Assembly: GCF_000526155.1 (NCBI RefSeq)
Contig: NZ_JAFN01000001.1
Coordinates: 872,501-936,500 of the forward strand
Origin: Deferrisoma camini S3R1
GTDB lineage: Bacteria > Desulfobacterota > Deferrisomatia > Deferrisomatales > Deferrisomataceae
Direction of reading: 5' to 3'
Length of the DNA stretch: 64,000 nt
The notes beneath the pieces were generated by a model, which did not search any database, was not told the DNA's origin, and saw only the letters and a program-made list of their open reading frames with translations. The first letter of the stretch is position 1; each line of letters starts with the position of its first letter. Shown piece by piece: positions 5,419-62,768 of the stretch. Made by a program: the position numbers and the translations under genes.

Positions 5419-5826
5419 GGCCTTCGGCCCGCTGGGCGACCAGGCGGCTGGACGGCTCACGAACCGCGCCAAGCTCGGGGGGCATGGGTTTCAGGGGCCA
5501 GAATTCAGAAGTCGGTGGACAGGGAGAAGGCTCTTCGGCCCCCCGAGAGGATCCTCCCGGGAACCCAAACTGCTTTTCGGGATTTCCTGTCTCCTGTTCG
5601 CTTCCATGTAGCTTCCGCTAGGACGCTAGGACGCATAAAAACCTACTTGATTCCAAAGTGTTCCAAGTATGGCCCCGCCTCTTTGTCGTCATCTCACGGT
5701 CTCGGGGAGGAAGGGACCTGGTGGAGCGCCCGCCCGCCTAAAGGGGCCGAGATCCCCGTGGTCTCCAGTCTCTAGTTTCTAGTCTTCGGCCCGCCGGAAG
5801 CAGGCCCCATGCCCCACCGCCGGCAA
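5384..5826 (+). repeat. Mosaic of dispersed repeat modules between flhB and cheB
   Basis: The 5355-5976 gap holds no gene I can support. In order it has: tandem heptamers at 5384-5418; a GAGGCCTTCGGCCCGCT stretch shared with 29620-29640; GGGGGGCATGGGTTTCAG and GGCCAGAATTCAG at 5478-5508, matching about 650-690 inverted; an inverted CTAG-rich module (5601-5667, as at 38021); a GGGACCTGGTGGAGCGC arm at 5714; a CTCTAGTTTCTAGTC stretch at 5768-5782 (inverse of 45331-45348); and the right arm of the core module (GGAAGCAGGCCCCATGCCCC, about 5799-5818). The core seems to have lost its middle here. Confidence 0.75.
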
Positions 5827-5885
5827 CGCTCCCGGCGCCCCGTGGCCACGCCAGAAGGACGGTTTCCGGTGTCCCCCAAAACGGG

Positions 5886-5913
5886 TCAAGTTCTTTTCGG
5901 CCGGTGCCGATGG
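5886..5913 (+). promoter_or_regulatory. Possible sigma-28 (FliA-type) promoter of the che operon
   Basis: TCAAGTTC, 12 bases, then GCCGATGG, close to the enterobacterial flagellar sigma-28 consensus TAAAGTTT-N11-GCCGATAA but one base longer. It lies 64 bases before the cheB start, where a chemotaxis operon promoter is expected. This is by eye only. Confidence 0.4.
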
Positions 5914-5976: not shown

Positions 5977-6996
5977 GTGATCCGGGTGTTGGTGGTGGAC
6001 GACTCGGCGTTCATGCGCAAGGCCCTGTCGAGGCTGCTCGAGGACGATCCCGAGATCCGGGTGGTGGGCAGCGCCCGGGACGGGTACGAGGCCCTGGAGA
6101 AGGTGCAGGAGCTGGACCCGGATCTCGTGACCCTCGACGTGGAGATGCCCCGGATGGACGGCCTCGAGGCCCTGGCGCGGATCATGGAGACCTCGCCGAG
6201 GCCGGTGATCATGGTGTCCAGCGTGACCGAGGAGGGCGCCGAGGTGACCCTGAGGGCGCTGGACATGGGCGCCGTGGACTACGTGCCCAAGAACATCGGC
6301 TCCAACCCCCTCGAGGTGGTGAAGATCCGGCAGACCCTGTGCCAGAAGGTCAAGGCGGTGGCCCGCCGCGGCGCGCCCCCGAAGCCGGCCCCGACCTCCG
6401 AGTCCCGCCGCCCGGCGCGGCTGGGGCCGGCCCGGTTGGTGGCGATCGGCGCGTCCACCGGCGGGCCCCCCGCGCTCCAGAAGGTGTTCTCGGGGCTTCC
6501 GGAGGGGTTTGGGGCGCCGGTCCTGGTGGTGCAGCACATGCCCAAGGCGTTCACGAAGGCGTTCGCGAAGCGGCTGGACGCCATGGGCCCCCTGGCGGTG
6601 AAGGAGGCCGAGAGCGGAGACCGGCTGGAGGCCGGCCGGGCCTTCGTGGCGCCCGGGGGGCGGCACGTGGTGGTCCACCGGGACGGCCGGGGGCTGGTTC
6701 TCCAGGTCACCGAACGGCCGGCGGACACCCTGCACCGGCCCAGCGTGGACGTCACCTTCCGGTCGGTGGCCGAGATCCCGGTGTCGGACGCCCTGGCGGT
6801 GGTCCTGACCGGCATGGGGTCGGACGGGGCCCGGGGCGCGGCAGCGATCAAGGCCCGGGGCGGGAGCGTGGTGGCCCAGAGCCCCGAGACCTGCGTGGTG
6901 TACGGGATGCCCCGGGCCGTGGTGGAGGCGGGCGTGGCCGATGCGGTGCTTCCCATCGACCGCATCGCGCCCGCGATCCGGGAGGCGGTGCCGTGA
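5977..6996 (+). CDS. cheB: Chemotaxis protein-glutamate methylesterase/deamidase CheB
   Basis: Removes methyl groups from, and deamidates, chemoreceptors; active when phosphorylated by CheA. The 339 residues have an N-terminal receiver domain (acid pair D8-D9, phosphorylation site D54 in LDVEMPRMDG), a linker rich in Pro/Arg (about 128-148), and a C-terminal esterase domain with the catalytic triad S160 (GASTGG), H187 (VQHMP) and D283 (GMGSDGA). The chosen GTG start at 5977 has an AAAGGAG site upstream and begins exactly where receiver domains begin. It is the first gene of the che operon and overlaps the next gene by 4 bases. Confidence 0.96.
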   Translation: MIRVLVVDDSAFMRKALSRLLEDDPEIRVVGSARDGYEALEKVQELDPDLVTLDVEMPRMDGLEALARIMETSPRPVIMVSSVTEEGAEVTLRALDMGAVDYVPKNIGSNPLEVVKIRQTLCQKVKAVARRGAPPKPAPTSESRRPARLGPARLVAIGASTGGPPALQKVFSGLPEGFGAPVLVVQHMPKAFTKAFAKRLDAMGPLAVKEAESGDRLEAGRAFVAPGGRHVVVHRDGRGLVLQVTERPADTLHRPSVDVTFRSVAEIPVSDALAVVLTGMGSDGARGAAAIKARGGSVVAQSPETCVVYGMPRAVVEAGVADAVLPIDRIAPAIREAVP

Positions 6997-7874
6997 GCTT
7001 GGAACGGGTGGTGGAGGTGATCAAGCGGTCCGGCGAGCTCCCCACCATCGGTGCGGTGGCGGCCGAGGTCATGCGCCTGGCCGGGGACCCCTCGGCGGAC
7101 TTCGGAAAGGTGGCGGCAGCGGTGGAGAACGATCCGTCGCTCGCCGCCAAGGTTCTGAGGCTGGCCAACTCCCCGTTCTACGGACTCCGGGGGGAGGTGG
7201 CCTCGGTGGAGCGGGCGGTGGCCCTCCTGGGCATGACCCAGGTTCGCAACATCGCCCTGTCGCTGTCCCTGATCCGGGACTTCTCGGGGGCCTACGGCGG
7301 CGAGACCTTCCGGTGGGACCGGTTCTGGGAGCACTCGGCCGGCGTGGCCCTGATCGCGGAGACCATGACCCGGCTGCTCAGGCTGCCGGTGTCGGGCACC
7401 GAGTACGCGGCCGGCCTGCTCCACGACGTGGGCAAGATCCTGCTGGGGCACCACTTCCCGGAGGAGTTCGGCCGGTGCCTGGACCTGGCGGCGCGGCGTC
7501 AGGTCTCTCTGTGGGAGGTGGAGCCGGAGGTGTTCGGCACCCACCACGCGGAGTTGGGGGGGTGGATCGCCGAGCGCTGGGGGTTCCCGGCCCCGCTGCG
7601 CGGTGCCATCCGCTACCACCACGAGCCCGGCGAGGCCGGGGACGAGCACGGGGTGGCGGCCGTGGTGCACCTGGCCGACCTCTTCGCCAAGGTCAAGCAG
7701 ATCGGGTTCGGGGGCGACCGGGTGGCGGTGTGCTTCGCCGACGACCCCGCCTGGGCCGTTCTGGTGGAGCGGCAGCCCCACCTGAGGGTCCTGGACCTGG
7801 CCCGGTTCACGCTGCAGCTGGACCAGGAGGTCGAGATGGCCCGGGCCCTGGCGAAGCTGGGGAGGGAGCCGTGA
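6993..7874 (+). CDS. HDOD-domain protein in chemotaxis operon
   Basis: HDOD domains are related to HD phosphohydrolases but usually lack activity, and are common next to chemotaxis and signalling genes. The 293 residues start with LPTIGAVAAEVMRLAGDP and include DPSLAAKVLRLANSPFYG and VERAVALLGMTQVRNIALSLSL, the classic HDOD core. An AAGLLHDVGKILLGHHF stretch retains an HD pair and HHAELGGWIAERWGFP follows. Starts at GTG overlapping the cheB stop; ends overlapping the cheR start. Its exact role is unknown; the operon position suggests a signalling scaffold or regulator. Confidence 0.85.
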   Translation: MSLERVVEVIKRSGELPTIGAVAAEVMRLAGDPSADFGKVAAAVENDPSLAAKVLRLANSPFYGLRGEVASVERAVALLGMTQVRNIALSLSLIRDFSGAYGGETFRWDRFWEHSAGVALIAETMTRLLRLPVSGTEYAAGLLHDVGKILLGHHFPEEFGRCLDLAARRQVSLWEVEPEVFGTHHAELGGWIAERWGFPAPLRGAIRYHHEPGEAGDEHGVAAVVHLADLFAKVKQIGFGGDRVAVCFADDPAWAVLVERQPHLRVLDLARFTLQLDQEVEMARALAKLGREP

Positions 7875-8749
7875 GCGGCTCCGCCAACCTGCGCCAGGGC
7901 GTCGTGAGCTTGTCGGCCGAGGAGTTCCGGGCGATCCGGGACTTCCTGTACGAGCGCAGCGGGCTGTACTTCGCCGAGAACAAGAAATACCTGCTCGAGA
8001 ACCGGTTGGCCCGGTGCATGGAGCAGGCCGGGGCCGAGACCGTGGCCCAGTACCTGAGCCTGCTGCGCTCCCCCACCCGGGGCCGGTCGGCCCTCATGAA
8101 CCTGCTCGACGCGGTCACCACCCACGAGACCTCCTTCTTCCGGCACCGGGCCCAGCTGGAGGCGTTCCAGCGCCAGGTGCTGCCCCAGCTGATGGAGGAC
8201 CTGAAGAGGCGCGGCCGCCGGAGCCTGCGGCTGTGGAGCGCGGCGTGCTCCTCGGGGGAGGAGCCCTACACCCTGGCCATGCTGATCCTCGAGGCCCTGG
8301 GGCCCGACCTGGGGGGGTGGAACGTGCGCATCTACGGAACGGACATCGCCCACTCCGTGATCCAGAAGGCCCGGGGCGCGGAGTACACCCGGTACTCGTT
8401 CCGGGGTACCCCGGCGTACTACGCGCAGAAGTACTTCGACGTGTTGGGGCCGGACCGTTTCCGCGTGAAGGAGGAGGTGCGCAGCCTGGTGGAGTTCGGC
8501 CTGCTCAACTTCGCGGACGACCTGCGCATGGGCCGCATGAGGGGGTTCCAGACGATCTTTTGCCGCAACGCGCTCATCTACTTCGACAAGCCGGCCAAAC
8601 GCAAGTTCGTGGCCCACTTCTACCGGGCCCTGGATCCGGGCGGGTATCTGTTCGTGGGCCACAGCGAGTCGCTCCACGGCATTACCGACGAGTTCAAGCT
8701 GGTCCATTTCCCCGGGGCGATGGGCTACTTGAAGCCGGCCGTTCCGTAG
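7871..8749 (+). CDS. cheR: Chemotaxis protein methyltransferase CheR (copy 1)
   Basis: Methylates glutamates of chemoreceptors using S-adenosylmethionine. The 292 residues show the N-terminal all-helical CheR domain (FRAIRDFLYERSGLYFAENK, VTTHETSFFRH) followed by the SAM-binding domain with WSAACSSGEEPYTLAM, the GTDIAHSVIQKA segment, and FCRNALIYFDKPAKRK. GTG start overlaps the preceding stop. A second, slightly shorter cheR lies in the same operon (11917). CheB and CheR together provide adaptation, but no receptor gene is seen in the window. Confidence 0.95.
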   Translation: MSGSANLRQGVVSLSAEEFRAIRDFLYERSGLYFAENKKYLLENRLARCMEQAGAETVAQYLSLLRSPTRGRSALMNLLDAVTTHETSFFRHRAQLEAFQRQVLPQLMEDLKRRGRRSLRLWSAACSSGEEPYTLAMLILEALGPDLGGWNVRIYGTDIAHSVIQKARGAEYTRYSFRGTPAYYAQKYFDVLGPDRFRVKEEVRSLVEFGLLNFADDLRMGRMRGFQTIFCRNALIYFDKPAKRKFVAHFYRALDPGGYLFVGHSESLHGITDEFKLVHFPGAMGYLKPAVP

Positions 8750-8770
8750 GGTCTGTCCAGGGAGGTGTCC

Positions 8771-11014
8771 ATGGAACCCGACCGAGTGTCCCCGGAGGTG
8801 GCCGAGCTCCTGCCGGACTATCTGGCCGACGCCCGGGAGTGCCTGGAGCGCGCCTCCGGGATCCTGCTCGCCATCGAGCGGGGGGACGACGACCCCGAGC
8901 TGCGGGCCGACCTGTACCGGCAGATGCACGTGATCAAAGGGGGGGCGGGACTGATGGGGTTCCGGACCGTGGAGGCGGTCACCCATGCCGCCGAGACCGC
9001 CCTGGGGCCGGTGAAGCGGGGGGAGCGGCCGTTCACCCCGGCCCTGGCCGCCGGCCTGCTCCGGGCCCACGACGTGATCGCGGCCCTGCTCAACGAGTTG
9101 GAGGCGGACGGGCGGACCCGCACCGACCCGGGGCCCGCCCTGGAGGCCCTCGAGGCGGCCGCCCGGGGGGAAGAGCCGGCCCCGAGCGAGACGGAGCCGG
9201 CCCCCTCGCCGGAAGCCCCTCCGGACCCCCCCGCCGACGGGCTCGCTTCGGACGACGAGGTGGTGCAGGAGTTCTTCGTCGAGGCCTGGGAGCTGATGGA
9301 GGAGCTGGAGCAGGACTTGGTGGCCCTGGAGGAGTCGCCGGACGACGCGGAGCTGCTCAACAAGATCTTCCGGGCGGCCCACACCCTGAAGGGGTCCAGC
9401 TCGTTCCTCGGGTTCGACGCCATCAGCCGGGTGACCCACCGGGTCGAGGACGTGTTCAACAAGCTGCGCCGGGGTGAGATGGTGGCCTCGGGCGAGGTCA
9501 TGGACGTGGTGCTCGAGGCCGTGGACCGGCTCCGCAGGCTCCTGGAGGCGGCCCAGGCCGGCCGGCCCGGCCCGGCCGTGGACGACGTGCTGGGGGCCCT
9601 GACCGAGGCCGTGGAGAGCGGCCGCCCCAAGCGGCTGGGGGAGATCCTGGTGGAGCAGGAGGGGGTTCCAGCGGAGGCGGTGGAGAAGGCCCTGCAGAGC
9701 CAGAAGGACGGCAAGCCCCTGGGCCAGGTGCTGGTGGAGCAGAAGGCGGTTCCCCCCGAGGTGGTCGAGCGGGGCCTGGCGCGGCAAAGGCAGATGCAGC
9801 GGCCGGCCCCCGAACAGACCGTGCGGGTGGACGTGGGACGCCTGGACACCCTGATGAACCTGGTGGGGGAGCTGGTGCTGGCGAAGAACCGCCTGGCCCG
9901 GCTGCGGGCCGAGGCGGAGGAGCGGTGGCCGGGGGAGGACCTGGTCGAGGCCCTGGGCGAGACCTCGGCCCAGGTGGACCTGGTGGCCTCGGACCTCCAG
10001 CTGGCGGTCATGAAGACGCGGTTGGTGCCGATCGGCAAGGTGTTCCGGAAGTTTCCCCGGATGGTGCGCGATCTCGCGCGCAACCTGGGCAAGGGGCTTC
10101 GCCTGGAGGTGGAGGGCGAGGGCACCGAGCTGGACAAGTCGGTGGTGGAGGTGATCGGGGACCCGCTGGTCCACCTGATCCGCAACGCCGCGGACCACGG
10201 GGTGGAGCCCCCCGAGGAACGGGAGCGGGCCAGAAAGCCCCGGGACGGGGTGATCCGGCTGTCGGCCCGCCACGAGGGGAACCACATCGTGGTGGAGGTG
10301 GCCGACGACGGGCGGGGCATGGACCCGGAGCGGCTGAAGGCCAAGGCCGTGGAGAAGGGTCTCCTGAGCGCCCAGGACGCGGCCGCGCTGTCGCCGAAGG
10401 AGGCGTTCAACCTGGTGTTCGCCCCGGGCTTCTCCACGGCGGAGAAGGTGTCGAACGTGAGCGGCCGGGGGGTGGGCATGGACGTGGTGCGCACGAACAT
10501 CCAGCAGCTCAACGGCCTGATCGAGATCGACTCGGAGCCCGGGCGGGGCACGAAGGTGGAGCTCAGGATCCCCCTGACCCTGGCCATCATCCAGGCCCTC
10601 CTCGTCCGGTGCGGCCCCGAGGTCTACGCGATCCCCCTGGTGAGCGTGTTGGAGACCGTGCGGGTCGAGCCGGGGCAGGTGAAGCCCCTGGACGGGGTGC
10701 CCGTGCTCCGGCTGCGGGATCAGGTGGTGCCCCTCGTGTACCTGGACCGGCTGTTGGCCGTACCCCCCCACGAGCGGTCGGCCCGGGAGTACGTGGTGGT
10801 GATCGGGCTCGCCGAGAAACGGGTGGGGGTGGTGGTGGGCGGCCTCCTGGGGGAGCAGGAGGTGGTGATCAAGAGTCTGGGGGGATACCTGTCGGACACC
10901 CCTGCGGTGGCGGGGGCCACGATCCTGGGTGACGGCCGGGTGACGCTGATCCTCGACGTGAACCAGGTCCTGGACTTGGCGGGCAAGACCGCGCCGCCCC
11001 GGGCCGCAGCCTGA
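8771..11014 (+). CDS. cheA: Chemotaxis histidine kinase CheA with two Hpt domains
   Basis: Central kinase of chemotaxis: receives receptor signals and phosphorylates CheY and CheB. The 747 residues carry two phosphotransfer domains, H53 (MHVIKGGAGLMGF) and H204 (AHTLKGSSSFLGF), separated by a Pro/Glu-rich linker. Next comes an unusual stretch with two similar units (LGEILVEQEGVPAEAVEKAL and LGQVLVEQKAVPPEVVERGL), then the dimer domain (VGRLDTLMNLVGELVLAKNR), the ATP-binding domain (HLIRNAADHGVE, VADDGRGMD, GRGVGMDVVRTN) and a CheW-like C-terminal domain. ATG 8771 has GGAGG six bases upstream. The LGEILVEQ units resemble the N-terminal c-di-GMP-binding fold of GspE/MshE; that similarity is only by eye. 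Confidence 0.94.
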   Translation: MEPDRVSPEVAELLPDYLADARECLERASGILLAIERGDDDPELRADLYRQMHVIKGGAGLMGFRTVEAVTHAAETALGPVKRGERPFTPALAAGLLRAHDVIAALLNELEADGRTRTDPGPALEALEAAARGEEPAPSETEPAPSPEAPPDPPADGLASDDEVVQEFFVEAWELMEELEQDLVALEESPDDAELLNKIFRAAHTLKGSSSFLGFDAISRVTHRVEDVFNKLRRGEMVASGEVMDVVLEAVDRLRRLLEAAQAGRPGPAVDDVLGALTEAVESGRPKRLGEILVEQEGVPAEAVEKALQSQKDGKPLGQVLVEQKAVPPEVVERGLARQRQMQRPAPEQTVRVDVGRLDTLMNLVGELVLAKNRLARLRAEAEERWPGEDLVEALGETSAQVDLVASDLQLAVMKTRLVPIGKVFRKFPRMVRDLARNLGKGLRLEVEGEGTELDKSVVEVIGDPLVHLIRNAADHGVEPPEERERARKPRDGVIRLSARHEGNHIVVEVADDGRGMDPERLKAKAVEKGLLSAQDAAALSPKEAFNLVFAPGFSTAEKVSNVSGRGVGMDVVRTNIQQLNGLIEIDSEPGRGTKVELRIPLTLAIIQALLVRCGPEVYAIPLVSVLETVRVEPGQVKPLDGVPVLRLRDQVVPLVYLDRLLAVPPHERSAREYVVVIGLAEKRVGVVVGGLLGEQEVVIKSLGGYLSDTPAVAGATILGDGRVTLILDVNQVLDLAGKTAPPRAAA

Positions 11015-11050: not shown

Positions 11051-11920
11051 ATGGGAGACGACCGGACCGCGCCGAGCATCGTGGGCACCAGCGCCGCGGT
11101 CGAGGCCCTGCGCCGGGCTCTGGCCCGGGTGGCCCGCACCCGCCTGCCGGTGCTGCTGTACGGAGAGACCGGCACCGGCAAGAAGCTGGCCGCCCGGGTC
11201 CTCCACGAGCTCTCGGGGCACGGGGGGGAGCTCCGCTGGGCCAACGGGAGGGACGAGGCCTCCCTGGCCGGGCTCGAGCGGGAGGGGCGTGGAGGCACCC
11301 TGGTGGTGGCCGGCATCGACGAGGCGCCGGCATCGGCCCAGGCCCGGATCCTGGGGTGGGTGGAGACTTGGGGGGACGAGGGGCCCTGGCGGTGGGTGTT
11401 CACGGCCCGCACGGACCTGGAGAGCCGGGTGGAGGAGGGCCGGTTCCGGGCGGATCTGTACTATCTGATCGGCGGGTTTCCCCTGGTCGTTCCCCCCTTG
11501 CGGGAGCGCCTCGAGGACCTGCCCGCCCTGGCCCGGGCCCTGGTGGCCCGGCACGCCCCGGGCCGGGAGTTCCCGGGGCTGAGCCCCGCCTTCCTGGAGG
11601 AGGCGGCCCTGTACCCCTGGCCAGGGAACGTGCGGGAGCTGGAACTGCTGCTGCTGGGCAGTTTCCCGCCGGAGCCGGGCGAGCCGTGGCCCCCGGCCCC
11701 GGCCACCCGGGCCCGGGCGGATCGGCCGGGGATCCTTCCCTTCGGCGAGGCCAAGCGCAGGTTCGAGCGGGACTACGTGGCCCGTCTGCTGCTGGTGACG
11801 CGGGGCAACGTGGCCCGGGCGGCGCGGCTGGCGGGGAAGGCCCGCAAGGACTTCTACATCCTGATGGGCCGCACGGGGATCCGGCCCCACGCGTTTCGGG
11901 CCGGCGGGAGGCGGGGTTGA
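11051..11920 (+). CDS. NtrC-like AAA+ protein lacking the GAFTGA loop
   Basis: Resembles the ATPase of sigma-54 activators. The 289 residues have Walker A GETGTGKK (38-45), a Walker-B-like GGTLVVAGIDEA, the ADLYYLIGGFPLVVPPLRERLEDLPALA block and PWPGNVRELELLLLG, then a Fis-type helix-turn-helix (RGNVARAARLAGKARKDFY). Between Walker A and Walker B the usual 35 or so residues holding ESELFGHxxGAFTGA are missing, so the loop that contacts sigma-54 is absent. It therefore probably cannot open sigma-54 promoters in the normal way and may be a regulator or remodelling ATPase for the chemotaxis system. No receiver domain. The stop overlaps the next start (TTGA). Confidence 0.8.
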   Translation: MGDDRTAPSIVGTSAAVEALRRALARVARTRLPVLLYGETGTGKKLAARVLHELSGHGGELRWANGRDEASLAGLEREGRGGTLVVAGIDEAPASAQARILGWVETWGDEGPWRWVFTARTDLESRVEEGRFRADLYYLIGGFPLVVPPLRERLEDLPALARALVARHAPGREFPGLSPAFLEEAALYPWPGNVRELELLLLGSFPPEPGEPWPPAPATRARADRPGILPFGEAKRRFERDYVARLLLVTRGNVARAARLAGKARKDFYILMGRTGIRPHAFRAGGRRG

Positions 11921-12777
11921 GTCGGCTATGGCAAGACCCCCGATTCGGGCCCCTGGCCCAAGAGCTGTACCGCCGGTGCGGCCTGGTGTTCGAGGGCGGC
12001 CAGGCCCACCTGTTCCGCAAGCGGGTGGAGCGACGGGCGATGGAGGCCGGGCACGGTGACGTGGACTCGTACCTGGAGCGGCTGGCGTTCGGCATCGATC
12101 CGGAGGAGTTCGAGCGGCTCGTGGATCTGCTGACGGTCAACGAGACCTTCTTTTTCCGGGAGCCGGAGCACTTCCGGCTGTTGTTGGACGAGTTCTGGCC
12201 CCGGTGGCGGGAAAGGGGGGAGGTCCGGGTCTGGAGCGCGGCCTGCTCCACCGGGTGCGAGCCCTACACCCTGGGCATGCTCCTGCGGGAGCGGGGTTGG
12301 CACGAGGGGGTGGAGATCCTGGCGAGCGACGTGAGCACCCGCGTCCTGGGTGAGGCCCGGCAGGGGGTGTACACCGAGTTCGCCCTGCGGAACACGCCCG
12401 CGTACTACCGGCAGCGGTACTTCCGGACCGAGGGGGGCCGGTTCCACCTGGACGCCTCGGTCCGGTCCATGGTGCGGTTCCAGCGGATCAACCTGGCCGG
12501 GCCCGAGCCGTGGAGCCCCCCGGGCCGGTTCCATGCGGTGTTCTGCCGCAACGTCCTGATCTACTTCGACCTGGAAGCCAAGCGCCGGGTCGTGGGACGA
12601 CTGGTGGCCAGCTTGCGGCCGGGTGGGGTGCTGGTGGTGGGGCGTTCGGAGTCGTTGCTGAGCGTGCCGGAGGCCCCGCCCCCGTTGCACCGGGGTGGGG
12701 TGGTGGTGTACCGGTTGCCGGAAGAGACGGAGAACGAATCCGAGGTTTCCCCGTTCGGGTGGAGGAGCCATGTCTGA
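11917..12777 (+). CDS. cheR: Chemotaxis protein methyltransferase CheR (copy 2)
   Basis: Second CheR-type SAM-dependent methyltransferase in this operon, 286 residues. Visible features: LYRRCGLVFEGGQAHLFRKR, VDLLTVNETFFFREPEHF, WSAACSTGCEPYTLGM (SAM loop), EILASDVSTRVLGEARQGVY and FCRNVLIYFDLEAKRRVVG. It starts at TTG 11917 overlapping the stop of the AAA+ gene and overlaps cheW by 8 bases. It is clearly a different lineage from copy 1, so the two may act on different receptors. Confidence 0.92.
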   Translation: MSRLWQDPRFGPLAQELYRRCGLVFEGGQAHLFRKRVERRAMEAGHGDVDSYLERLAFGIDPEEFERLVDLLTVNETFFFREPEHFRLLLDEFWPRWRERGEVRVWSAACSTGCEPYTLGMLLRERGWHEGVEILASDVSTRVLGEARQGVYTEFALRNTPAYYRQRYFRTEGGRFHLDASVRSMVRFQRINLAGPEPWSPPGRFHAVFCRNVLIYFDLEAKRRVVGRLVASLRPGGVLVVGRSESLLSVPEAPPPLHRGGVVVYRLPEETENESEVSPFGWRSHV

Positions 12778-13252
12778 CAACGCGAACAGCTCGGACCAGG
12801 AGATCCTGCAGCTCGTCACCTTCCACATCGGGGAGGAGGAGTTCGGCGTGGCCATCCTGGACGTCCGGGAGATCAACCGGATGATGGAGGTCACCCGGGT
12901 GCCCCACGCCCCCGAGTTCGTGGAAGGGGTCGTGAACCTGCGGGGCCGGGTGATCCCGGTGGTGGACCTGCGCAAGCGCTTCGGCCTGCCGGCCCGGGAG
13001 CGGGACCGCAGCACCCGGATCGTGGTGGTGGAGCTGACCGACAAGGTCGTGGGGTTCATCGTGGACGCGGTGGACGAGGTGCTGCGGGTGCCGTCGAACC
13101 TGGTGGAGCCCCCACCGCCCATCGTGGGAGGCGTGGATCGGCAGTACATCGAGGGGGTGGTCAAGCTGGAGGACCGGTTGCTCATCCTGTTGAACCTGCA
13201 CAAGCTCCTCGGCACCGACGAGTCGGAGGAGCTCCGGGAGTTCGAACCGTGA
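12770..13252 (+). CDS. cheW: Chemotaxis coupling protein CheW
   Basis: Links receptors to CheA at the cell pole. It has 160 residues, a single CheW domain: LQLVTFHIGEEEFGVAILDV, PHAPEFVEGVVNLRGRVIPV, DLRKRFGL, then VDAVDEVLRVP and the final LLILLNLHKLL. ATG 12770 has GGAGGAG upstream, inside the end of cheR copy 2. The stop overlaps the cheX start (GTGA). Confidence 0.96.
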   Translation: MSDNANSSDQEILQLVTFHIGEEEFGVAILDVREINRMMEVTRVPHAPEFVEGVVNLRGRVIPVVDLRKRFGLPARERDRSTRIVVVELTDKVVGFIVDAVDEVLRVPSNLVEPPPPIVGGVDRQYIEGVVKLEDRLLILLNLHKLLGTDESEELREFEP

Positions 13253-13716
13253 AAGCCGAGATCGTGAATCCGTTCTTGCATGCCACCGTGGACGTGCTGC
13301 GCACCATGGCCGGGGTCGAGGCCCGGCGGGGGGCCCCCCGGCTCAAGGGAGCCGGGGAGCCCTCGTTCGACATCTCGGGCCTCGTGGGCCTCAGCGGCCA
13401 GGTGCAGGGGTACGTGGCCCTGAGCTTTCGGGAGCCCGCGGCGTTCTACGTGGTGGGCCGGTTCCTCGGGGAACCGGTGCAGGAGACGAACGCCCAGGTG
13501 CGCGACGCCGTGGGCGAGCTGGCCAACATCGTGGCCGGCGGGGCCAAGCGGGTGCTGGCCGAGCAGGGCTACGACCTGAAGATCTCCATCCCCACCGTGG
13601 TGGTCGGTCGGAACCACACCGTGTCGAGGCCCCGGGGGATCCCCTGCATCGAGATCCCCTTCGACACCGACGGGGGGCCGTTCCGGGTGGAGCTGTGTCT
13701 CAAGTTGGAGCCGTAG
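13249..13716 (+). CDS. cheX: Chemotaxis phosphatase CheX
   Basis: CheX dephosphorylates CheY-P. The 155 residues contain one CheC/CheX-type half-motif, AVGELANIVAGGAKR, with the E..N pair that inserts at the CheY active site, plus an N-terminal FLHATVDVLRTMAGVE helix and a C-terminal PFRVELCLKLEP strand. It supplies signal removal for an operon without cheZ. GTG start coupled to cheW; overlaps the next gene by 22 bases. Confidence 0.9.
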   Translation: MKAEIVNPFLHATVDVLRTMAGVEARRGAPRLKGAGEPSFDISGLVGLSGQVQGYVALSFREPAAFYVVGRFLGEPVQETNAQVRDAVGELANIVAGGAKRVLAEQGYDLKISIPTVVVGRNHTVSRPRGIPCIEIPFDTDGGPFRVELCLKLEP

Positions 13717-14651
13717 GGCCGGGCGCCGCGCCGCCGGCCGCCGCGCCGGGGGCGGCGGAAGGGGTGCGGCTGGCGGCCGGGACCGTGGTCGAGGCCCAGA
13801 TCCTCGAGTCGGCCGAGCCGGGCTCGGGCAGGGTGGCGGTGGGCCGGTGGGTGCTGGACGCGCGGTTTCCGGCGGAGCTGCCCCAGGGCGCGCGGTTCCA
13901 GGCCCGGGTGGAGGTCGAGGGGCCGCCCGTGGTGCTGCGGCTCCTGGAGCCTCCGGAGGCGGATGCGGCACGCCTGGCCGTGCCCCCCCGCCAGGCCCTG
14001 GCCCGGGCGGTGGTGCGGCTGCTGGAGGCCGCCCGGTCCGACCCGGACCTGGCCCCCCTGGCCCGGCTGCTCCGGCTGTCCCCCGAGCCCCGGGCCTTGG
14101 CCTCGGACCTGGCCCGATGGGTGCGGGAGAGCGGGGTGTTCCACGAGTCGGCCCTGGCCCGGGGGGAGGTGCCCGAGGACCTGAAGACCCTGGCGGGCCG
14201 TCTGCTGGGGAGGCTCGGCGACGGGCCGGTGCGCGAGGCCCTGGAGGGCCTGGTTCGCCACGTGGAGGCCCACCAGGCCCGGGGCGCGCTCACGGGCGGG
14301 CCGGTGATTCCCCTGGTGCTGCCCTGGCCGGGCGGCGCCGTGCACGGCGAGATCGCCCTGGAGCCCGAGCGGGGCGGCCGCGGGGGGCCGGGGCGACGGT
14401 ATCGGGCCCTGAGGATCCGCCTGGACCTGCCCAACCTGGGCCCGGTGGAGGTCCGGGCGGCCTGGTCCCCCGAGGGCGTACGGCTGGGCCTGGCAGCCCG
14501 GGCCGAGGTGCTGCCCCTGGTGCGGGCACGGTTGGATGGGCTGCGTCGCGCCCTGACCCGGGACGCCGGGGTGCGGCTCGTGGGCCTGGCGGTGGAGGCC
14601 CTGCGGCCGCCCGCGGTGGAGGGCCCTTCGGTCCTGGAGGTTCGGGCGTGA
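13695..14651 (+). CDS. FliK-like protein (flagellar hook-length control domain)
   Basis: A 318-residue, Ala/Pro/Arg-rich protein. The C-terminal 90 residues (LRIRLDLPNLGPVEVRAAWS, then GVRLGLAARAEVLPLVRARL and DGLRRALTRDAGVRL) fit the Flg_hook domain of FliK, the ruler and switch signal that acts on FlhB. The long N-terminal part has no domain I can name. Directly downstream is a free FlhB-type C-terminal domain, a pairing that makes functional sense. Start taken at GTG 13695, inside cheX; a later GTG near 13761 is possible. Confidence 0.72.
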   Translation: MSQVGAVGPGAAPPAAAPGAAEGVRLAAGTVVEAQILESAEPGSGRVAVGRWVLDARFPAELPQGARFQARVEVEGPPVVLRLLEPPEADAARLAVPPRQALARAVVRLLEAARSDPDLAPLARLLRLSPEPRALASDLARWVRESGVFHESALARGEVPEDLKTLAGRLLGRLGDGPVREALEGLVRHVEAHQARGALTGGPVIPLVLPWPGGAVHGEIALEPERGGRGGPGRRYRALRIRLDLPNLGPVEVRAAWSPEGVRLGLAARAEVLPLVRARLDGLRRALTRDAGVRLVGLAVEALRPPAVEGPSVLEVRA

Positions 14652-59839: not shown

Positions 59840-62509
59840 TCAGTTCACCACCTCGGCCTCGTACACCTCGGGCTCGTCGGGTGGGCTCTCTTCGGCACCG
59901 GAGGGGTTCTCCCACCGGAGCCGGAGCTCGCCGTCCTCGGCGTCCACCGTGACGGTGGCGCCGTCGCGCACCTCGCCCGCGATGAGGGAGCGGGCGATGC
60001 GGGTCTCGAGCTGCCGCTGGAGGTAGCGCTTGAGGGGGCGCGCGCCGTAGACCGGGTCGTACCCGGCCCGGGCGATGAGCTTGCGGGCCTCCTCGGTCAG
60101 CACGAACCGGATCCTCCGGTCCTGGAGCCGCCGCACCAGGTCCTGGGTCAGCAGGTCCACGATCCGCTCGATCTCCTCCAGGGTCAGGGGCTTGAACAGC
60201 ACGATCTCGTCCACCCGGTTCAGGAACTCCGGCCGGAAGTGGGCCCGGAGCTCCCGCATCACGGCCTCCCGGGCCGACTCCCGGATCTCGCCCCGGTCGG
60301 TGACCCCCTCGAGCAGGTGGTGGGAGCCGATGTTAGAGGTCATGATGATCACCGTGTTGCGGAAGTCCACCGTGCGGCCGTGGGAGTCGGTGAGCCGGCC
60401 GTCGTCCAGGATCTGGAGCAGCACGTTGAACACGTCGTGATGGGCCTTCTCGATCTCGTCGAACAGGATCACCGAGTAGGGCTTGCGTCGCACCGCCTCG
60501 GTGAGCTGTCCGCCCTCCTCGAACCCCACGTACCCCGGCGGGGCTCCGATCAGGCGGCTCACCGCGTGCTTCTCCATGTACTCGCTCATGTCGATCCGGA
60601 TCAGGTTCTCCTCGGTGTCGAACAGGGCCTCGGCCAGGGTCTTGGCCAGCTCGGTCTTGCCCACGCCGGTGGGGCCGAGGAAGATGAACGACCCGATCGG
60701 CCTCCGGGGGTCCTTGATCCCGGAGCGGGCCCGGAGCACCGCGTCGGCCACGAGCTGCACGGCCTCGTCCTGGCCCACCACCCGACGGTGGAGCACCTCA
60801 TCGAGCCGGAGCAGCTTCTCCCGCTCGCCCTCCATCAGCCGGGACACCGGGATCCCGGTCCAGCGGGACACGATCTCGGCGATCTCCTCCTCGGTCACCT
60901 CCTCCCGCAGGAGCCGCGTGCCGCCCAGCCGGTTGAGCTCGGCCTCCTTCTCCCGGAGCCGGCGCTCCAGCTCGGGCAGCCGACCGTGCTTGAGCTCGGC
61001 CGCCTTCTCTAGGTCGTAGTTGCGCTCGGCCACCGAGATCTCCTGGCGCACCCCCTCGATCTCCTCGCGCAGGCCCTGCACGGCCTTGATGGCCTCCTTC
61101 TCGTTGTCCCACTGGGCCCGCATGGCGTCCGCCCGGGCCCGCAGGTCGGCCAGCTCCTTCCGGAGCTGCTCTAGCCGCTCCCGGCTCGCCGCGTCCTTCT
61201 CCTTCTTCAGCGCCGCCTCCTCGATCTCCAGCTGCATGATCCGCCGGGTCACCTCGTCCAGCTCGGCCGGCATGGAGTCGATCTCCGTGCGGATCATGGC
61301 GCAGGCCTCGTCCACCAGGTCGATGGCCTTGTCGGGCAGGAACCGGTCCGTGATGTAGCGGTGGCTCAGCACGGCGGCGGCCACCAGGGCGTTGTCCTGG
61401 ATGCGCACGCCGTGGTGGACCTCGTAGCGCTCCTTGAGCCCCCGGAGGATCGAGATCGAGTCCTCCACCGTGGGCTCCTCCACCAGCACCGGCTGGAACC
61501 GGCGCTCGAGCGCCGGGTCCTTCTCGATGTACTGGCGGTACTCGTCCAGGGTGGTCGCGCCGATGCAGCGCAGCTCCCCCCGGGCGAGCATGGGCTTGAG
61601 CATGTTGCCGGCGTCGATGGCGCCCTCGGCCTTGCCCGCGCCCACGATGGTGTGGAGCTCGTCGATGAACAGGATGATGCGGCCCTCGCTCTCCTTGATC
61701 TCCTGGAGCACCGCCTTCAGCCGCTCCTCGAACTCGCCCCGGTACTTGGCCCCGGCCACCAGGGCCCCCATGTCCAGGGCGTACACGGTCTTGTCCTTGA
61801 GCCCCTCGGGCACGTCGCCCCGGACGATCCGCTGGGCCAGGCCCTCCACGATGGCGGTCTTGCCCACGCCGGGCTCACCGATCAGCACCGGGTTGTTCTT
61901 GGTCTTGCGCGAGAGGATCCGGATCACCCGCCGGATCTCGGCGTCCCGGCCGATCACGGGGTCGAGCCGGCCCATCTGCGCCTCCTTGACCAGGTCCCGG
62001 CCGTAGCGCTCCAGCGCCTCGTAGGTGGCCTCGGGCGTGGGGCTGGTGACCCGCTGGTGGCCCCGCACGGCCACCAGGGCCTCCATGAACCGCTCGGCCG
62101 TGACGCCGTACTCCGCAAAGATCCGGCCGGCCTCGGTCTCGGTACCCTCGCGGATCATGGCGAGCACCAGGTGCTCCACCGACACGTACTCGTCCTTGAG
62201 CCGCTTCGCCTCCTCCTCGGCCCGAACCAGGAGCCGGTTCAGACGCTGGGTCACGTAGATCTTTCCGCCTTCGACCCCCGGGCCGGACACCTGGGGCCGC
62301 GTGTCCAGGGCCCGGATCACCTTGGCGCGGAAGTCGGCCACCACCACGTCGAGCCGCTCCAGCAGTCGGGGAATCAGGCCGTCGGCCTGGTCCACCAGGG
62401 CGAGGAGCAGGTGCTCCCCGTCCACCTCCACGTGGCCGCGCTTCATGGCGATCTTCTGGGCCTCGGCAAGGGCCTCCTGGGACTTCTGGGTCAGTCGGTT
62501 CAGGTCCAT
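59840..62509 (-). CDS. clpB: ATP-dependent chaperone ClpB
   Basis: Hexameric disaggregase that rescues aggregated proteins with DnaK. It has 889 residues: N-domain ([20 protein letters not shown]), first AAA+ with Walker A GEPGVGKT and [20 protein letters not shown], a long coiled-coil middle domain (about 400-530), second AAA+ with GPTGVGKT and [20 protein letters not shown], and the usual acidic tail. No ClpP-binding loop is expected. ATG 62509 has AGAAGGAGAAGGAGAC upstream. I do not see a clear heat-shock promoter in the 285-base gap, which contains a core-module fragment. Confidence 0.97.
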
Positions 62510-62656
62510 GGTCTCCTTCTCCTTCTCGGCCCCGATCGGGCCGGTTGGTCTTCTGCGAGTTCGTACGCGGCCACAAAGGTAAGGCCGAAAGGGGGGAACG
62601 CAAGTCGCCCTCGCCGGGTTTGGTGCCGAGCTGCGCCGAAACCGAGAGCCCTTGAG

Positions 62657-62724
62657 GGCGGGGCAAGGGGCCCTGCCGGAGAGCCGGGTGCGAAGCCGGG
62701 CCTTGGGACCCGCCGCGCAGACGG
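62657..62724 (+). repeat. Fragment of the dispersed core repeat upstream of clpB
   Basis: GGGCGGGGCAAGGGGCCCTG, then CCGGAGAGCCGGGTGCGAAG and CCGCCGCGCAGACGGG, parallel to the left arm of the element at 14950. The right arm is absent. Confidence 0.6.
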
Positions 62725-62738
62725 GGGAGGGGGGCCGG

Positions 62739-62768
62739 AAAAAACGGCGCATCCTCGGTGGATGCGCC
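62739..62768 (-). terminator. Rho-independent terminator after the acyl-CoA ligase gene
   Basis: Perfect 9-bp stem GGCGCATCC / GGATGCGCC (62746-62754, 62760-62768) with loop TCGGT, followed on the minus strand by TTTTTT. It starts 26 bases after the stop of the ligase gene. Confidence 0.88.

Follow-up and report, generated by a model that had tools for sequence, protein, structure and literature searches.

Several EBP paralogues lack the GAFTGA motif, including TyrR, DhaR, HupR, and VpsR (PMC3162934) as well as the NtrC proteins of Rhodobacter and Caulobacter, of which Rhodobacter NtrC needs ATP binding but not hydrolysis (PMC10274813). A number of these GAFTGA-less proteins are reported to act on sigma-70 promoters (PMC3162934, PMC10274813). 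A paralogue of this kind working at promoters other than those of sigma-54 is an already known type. The 289-aa protein described here is a more degenerate, chemotaxis-linked variant of the GAFTGA-less EBPs. The gene lies in a 64,000-nucleotide stretch of DNA (the window) that corresponds to positions 872501–936500 of the source genome, a single contig of 4.24 Mb. With a probability of roughly 0.6, the product is a one-component DNA-binding regulator that acts on motility or chemotaxis genes independently of sigma-54, is probably unable to hydrolyse ATP, and derives from a sigma-54 activator. Literature on the PF14532 domain, on Deferrisoma chemotaxis, and on sigma-54-domain proteins in che operons contained nothing on this protein.

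The gene is one open frame with an SD-like GGAGG immediately 5' of its start, and its place between cheA and cheR in a che operon is as the original prediction had it (Table 1). PF14532 (Sigma54_activ_2) spans the protein from end to end with 74.1 bits, against a gathering cut-off of 25. Further Pfam matches are AAA_lid_14 and a broken match to PF00158, and no receiver or other N-terminal domain was identified with Pfam. HTH_8 matches six of the seven members of the orthologue set weakly and is below the curated cut-off in the 289-aa protein. Elsewhere in the window, a weak Sigma54_activat match at 59840–62752 on the minus strand belongs to an ordinary ClpB-type AAA+ chaperone.

Table 1 Features of the che operon and of the 289-aa protein, in window positions
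Feature	Position	Strand	Basis or remark
Conserved element and sigma-28-like promoter GTC..AAAA..GG-TCAAGT-N14-GCCGAT, upstream of cheB	5871..5911	+	Six genomes; the seventh ends at a contig end
cheB	5977..6996	+	Translation and synteny
HDOD-domain protein gene	6993..7874	+	
cheR, first copy	7871..8749	+	
cheA	8765..11014	+	Stop at 11014, upstream of the 289-aa protein gene
289-aa protein, degenerate bEBP (AAA+ pseudo-activator, probable GlrR-type HTH)	11051..11920	+	PF14532, AAA_lid_14, weak HTH_8, no GAFTGA, seven orthologues
Walker A LYGETGTGK, residues 36–44, kept	11156..11182	+	GExGxGK invariant in seven orthologues
Shrunken stretch, residues 57–80, in place of helix 2, L1/GAFTGA loop, and helix 3; net loss 22 aa	11219..11290	+	Spacing; model
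Degenerate Walker B GGTLVVAGIDEA, residues 81–92; canonical D-E replaced by A87-G88; D90 invariant	11291..11326	+	Alignment of seven
Arginine-finger segment GRFRADLYYL, residues 130–139; first Arg kept, second is Leu	11438..11467	+	
C-terminal helix-turn-helix, residues 230–283, best-conserved part, GKARKDFY signature	11738..11899	+	
cheR, second copy (CheR2)	11917..12777	+	TTG start overlaps the stop of the 289-aa protein gene (TTGA)
cheW	12770..13252	+	
cheX	13249..13716	+	
fliK-like gene	13695..14651	+	

The AAA+ domain has lost the parts that contact sigma-54 and much of its catalytic apparatus. GAFTGA is absent from all seven orthologues, the 289-aa protein among them. The Walker A lysine is separated from the GGT before Walker B by 37 residues (35–43 across the seven orthologues), compared with a median of 59 and a 5–95% range of 58–60 in 106 other bEBPs. 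Since the deletion is common to all seven orthologues, it reflects neither chance nor error. The interval from GGT to the arginine finger, which holds the pre-sensor I or L2 loop, is also about nine residues short (50 versus 59), and measures 50–55 residues in six of the seven members and 63 in G005. Walker B reads LVVAGIDEA where the usual form is LFLDEIGE, and the residues at the position of the acidic pair are AG, TG, TG, SG, EG, ED, and EA in the seven members. The Asn/His of sensor I is gone from all seven (Arg120 in the 289-aa protein). The first arginine finger, R133 of FRxDL, is invariant, the second position holds Leu139 here and Leu or Gln in the orthologues, and the sensor II Arg is kept in six of seven members. 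These residue roles follow those known for PspF and NtrC1. Two residues past the lost acidic pair, D90 might serve as a relocated metal ligand, in which case residual hydrolysis would be possible.

An AlphaFold2 model of the protein, a check proposed with the original prediction, is of good confidence (mean pLDDT 87.8) and has a bEBP-like AAA+ fold. One short helix (residues 69–77) replaces the L1 hairpin directly before strand 82–87. The AAA+ part is closest to FleQ, FlrC, NtrX, and VpsR and also aligns with PspF, with Z scores of about 19–22, mostly over about 210 residues. The original prediction was correct about the loss of GAFTGA and overestimated its size, giving about 35 missing residues between Walker A and Walker B where the net loss is 22 (37 versus a median of 59). 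Its claim that the arginine-finger region remains is borne out for FR133xDL and fails for the second arginine, now Leu139. The Fis-type helix-turn-helix that it described is present at the C terminus according to the HTH profile, the AlphaFold2 model, and the weak HTH_8 match. It did not mention that all seven members have lost the Walker B acidic pair as well as the sensor I Asn/His. There is good sequence support for its claim that the protein could not serve as a conventional sigma-54 activator, given the lost L1, the shortened L2, and the missing catalytic residues. Its suggestion of a new chemotaxis regulator is plausible.

Orthologues were searched for in 59 genomes, comprising the source genome and its relatives. 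Six were identified, with 92%–97% identity within the genus and 45%–49% within the family and order (E ≤ 1e-55), and the next bEBP in that search had an E value of 1e-36. A profile search over 12 genomes of the class yielded the same set. All seven flagellated Deferrisomatales genomes sampled, which have flhB and belong to three families, carry the gene. It was not found in any of the five non-flagellated genomes of the order, which form a fourth family and also lack flhB. The gene tracks flagellation, a pattern confounded with the absence of the whole operon from the flhB-less genomes. Gene order is preserved in all seven as far as contigs reach: flhB, cheB, (HDOD), cheR, cheA, the 289-aa protein gene, cheR, cheW, cheX, fliK, and flhB-like. 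The case rests on few genomes, most of them draft assemblies.

Occurrence beyond the seven genomes was assessed in 388 other Desulfobacterota genomes for the signature and in 23 cheA neighborhoods. A search of 395 Desulfobacterota genomes with a degenerate DNA pattern for the GKARKDFY signature gave a single match in each of the seven and no match in the remaining 388. No similar gene adjoins cheA in the neighborhoods (1.5 kb either side) of 23 other Desulfobacterota genomes; in one of them, part of a bEBP is matched weakly on the opposite strand, beyond cheW.

GAFTGA is altered or missing in some other bEBPs. In a second paralogue without GAFTGA in the source genome (G000:C1:4081667-4082095), Walker A is changed to GEAGTGR and Walker B has degenerated to YLKDVEHLP. 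Another bEBP (G000:C1:1790927-1791424) has GAVSDA for GAFTGA and Walker B LEDVDG, is otherwise full length, and is possibly another sigma-54-independent EBP. In Candidatus Thiothrix singaporensis (L096:8001-8948), a bEBP-type protein without GAFTGA and with a changed Walker B, FVAEI, is an unrelated case of like loss. Two Desulfobacterales bEBPs that seemed by spacing to share the deletion both have GAFTGA and were artefacts of the motif search.

The ancestry of the protein was judged from the helix-turn-helix alone. The AAA+ core by itself was uninformative, and in a maximum-likelihood tree built from AAA+ and HTH together the seven proteins share a single long branch (support 1.0) beside two other bEBPs, a placement that looks like long-branch attraction and was therefore set aside. 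A profile of the seven HTH regions scored 66–82 bits on five GlrR-type proteins of the order and 43–66 bits on six other bEBPs of the phylum, with the next protein at 31 bits. For the GlrR-like protein of the source genome (G000:C1:1029985-1031361), the best family is the NCBIfam GlrR model, with 619 bits, below the strict cut-off of 763; the gene for this protein follows a HAMP/HisKA kinase gene, and the protein keeps GAFTGA. Descent of the 289-aa protein from GlrR is likely on the strength of these HTH scores. The recognition helix is KDFYALMARN in the 289-aa protein and TEFYKLLSRH in GlrR, and the DNA site is therefore expected to differ. No copy of the GlrR-type palindrome TGTC-N10-GACA lies close to the operon, and its frequency across the window is that of chance. 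This would be expected of an altered recognition helix that reads a different site; no other site was found.

In a different interpretation, the protein is an anti-activator that keeps one arginine finger and an AAA+ interface and poisons sigma-54 activation, either by joining the assemblies of an intact bEBP (GlrR or a flagellar one) or by competing with it for sites. Its HTH most resembles that of GlrR from the same order, the first arginine finger (FRxDL) is invariant, and the source genome has about 30 bEBP domains. Against this, the recognition helices differ, G001 and G005 (both draft assemblies) carry the gene and have no GlrR orthologue at the threshold used, and the sigma-54 site TGGC-N6-TTGC has no match anywhere in the window. 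We consider an anti-activator improbable.

Upstream of cheB, TCAAGT-N14-GCCGAT preceded by an A-tract is present in all six genomes in which the region is readable. It resembles the sigma-28 consensus, and a fliA-type sigma gene is intact in the source genome. Four genomes carry the upstream extension GTCRAAAARRNGTCAAG, each of them without mismatch only before cheB in the whole genome; the window's genus has it in a longer form. This extension is the best candidate site for a dedicated regulator, and autoregulation by the 289-aa protein through it is a guess. A similar promoter-like motif, TCAAGT-N13-GCCGAT, lies at G000:C1:1436956-1436980 and in same-genus counterparts, about 3 kb upstream of a second cheA-like gene and with a T-rich stretch before it. 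Between flhB and cheB, the window also contains an interspersed intergenic repeat (5440–5620) of at most about 160 bp, which the genome matches in full or in part at about 50 places. The flhB–cheB gap is much shorter in the same-genus genome G001, and the repeat looks inserted.

The preferred reading is that of a stand-alone regulator that lacks receiver and sensor domains, has a sigma-54 activator as its ancestor, and probably bears a GlrR-type DNA-binding domain. Because L1 with GAFTGA, part of L2, the Walker B acids, sensor I, and the second arginine finger are lost, it is not expected to remodel sigma-54 polymerase, and its ATP hydrolysis is probably weak or absent. The intact Walker A may still bind nucleotide as a structural or oligomerisation cue. 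Through the conserved Fis-type HTH, the protein, as a dimer or a larger oligomer, would recognise a specific DNA site and modulate promoters of other sigma factors (sigma-28 or sigma-70), most likely those of the flagellar/chemotaxis regulon. Should the gene share a transcript with cheA, cheR, cheW, and cheX that starts at the sigma-28-like promoter ahead of cheB, the amount of the protein would increase as late flagellar genes are expressed, making it a feedback regulator of motility genes. A more specific version is tentative and less likely than not: that a stripped sigma-54 activator was converted in the ancestor of the flagellated Deferrisomatales to a one-component factor that feeds chemotaxis or late-flagellar expression back onto its own operon's promoter (GTC-AAAA-GTCAAGT overlapping the sigma-28-like -35) or onto other motility promoters.

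Selection on the gene bears on the remaining alternatives. Values of dN/dS against two same-genus copies are 0.078 and 0.125, compared with 0.120 and 0.146 for CheA and 0.114 and 0.137 for CheR2. At the level of the order, the protein diverges faster than its che neighbors (about 42%–48% identity versus 54%–78%). Identity to order-level orthologues is 65%–67% in the HTH and 35%–65% in the main AAA+ segments, and the turn and recognition-helix segment AGKARKDFY is invariant across members. The gene is kept by selection and is not decaying. A structural or signaling role, in which the AAA+ remnant contacts the chemotaxis apparatus (CheR2, CheW, or CheX) and the HTH does no more than dimerise the protein or anchor it to the nucleoid, would account for purifying selection on an AAA+ core without a motor, for the strict position between cheA and cheR2, and for the start codon overlap in the source genome. 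The full invariance of AGKARKDFY exceeds what dimerisation alone needs, and such a role is doubtful. That the protein is still a sigma-54 activator, contacting sigma-54 through another surface, is very unlikely: Walker A, the first arginine finger, the sensor II Arg (6/7), and the HTH are kept, but L1 is lost, L2 is shortened, the Walker B acids are gone, and the operon promoter looks sigma-28-like. A decaying pseudogene of a sigma-54 activator, as the many missing catalytic residues might suggest and as the original prediction would have concluded had orthologues kept GAFTGA, is refuted by those orthologues, all seven without GAFTGA in the same operon, with an open frame across three families, dN/dS of 0.08–0.13, and the same lesions and synteny throughout.

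The locus is a natural case of an AAA+ motor without its engine, in which the DNA-binding part is under strong selection and the gene is fixed in the che operon of the order's flagellated genomes. If the protein is a transcription regulator, it connects the chemotaxis genes to gene regulation, a link that is unstudied in these bacteria. It also carries a warning for annotation pipelines, which score it as a protein with a sigma-54 interaction domain although it is without the required features. The full-length PF14532 match assigns a domain family only and is silent on function.

FleQ, FlrC, NtrX, and PspF AAA+ structures have the same fold as the 289-aa protein (Z of about 20–22 over about 210 residues); of these, FleQ, FlrC, and PspF activate sigma-54 and have an L1 loop. 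GlrR (QseF), a sigma-54 response regulator, shares the AAA+ family and has the closest DNA-binding domain, but differs in its receiver domain, GAFTGA, intact Walker B, other recognition helix, and separate locus. TyrR, DhaR, HupR, VpsR, and the Rhodobacter and Caulobacter NtrC proteins share the AAA+ plus HTH arrangement and the loss of the sigma-54 contact loop, and carry N-terminal receiver or sensory domains. In contrast to these proteins, which serve other regulons, the 289-aa protein is without an N-terminal domain, has wider catalytic loss, and has its home in a che operon.
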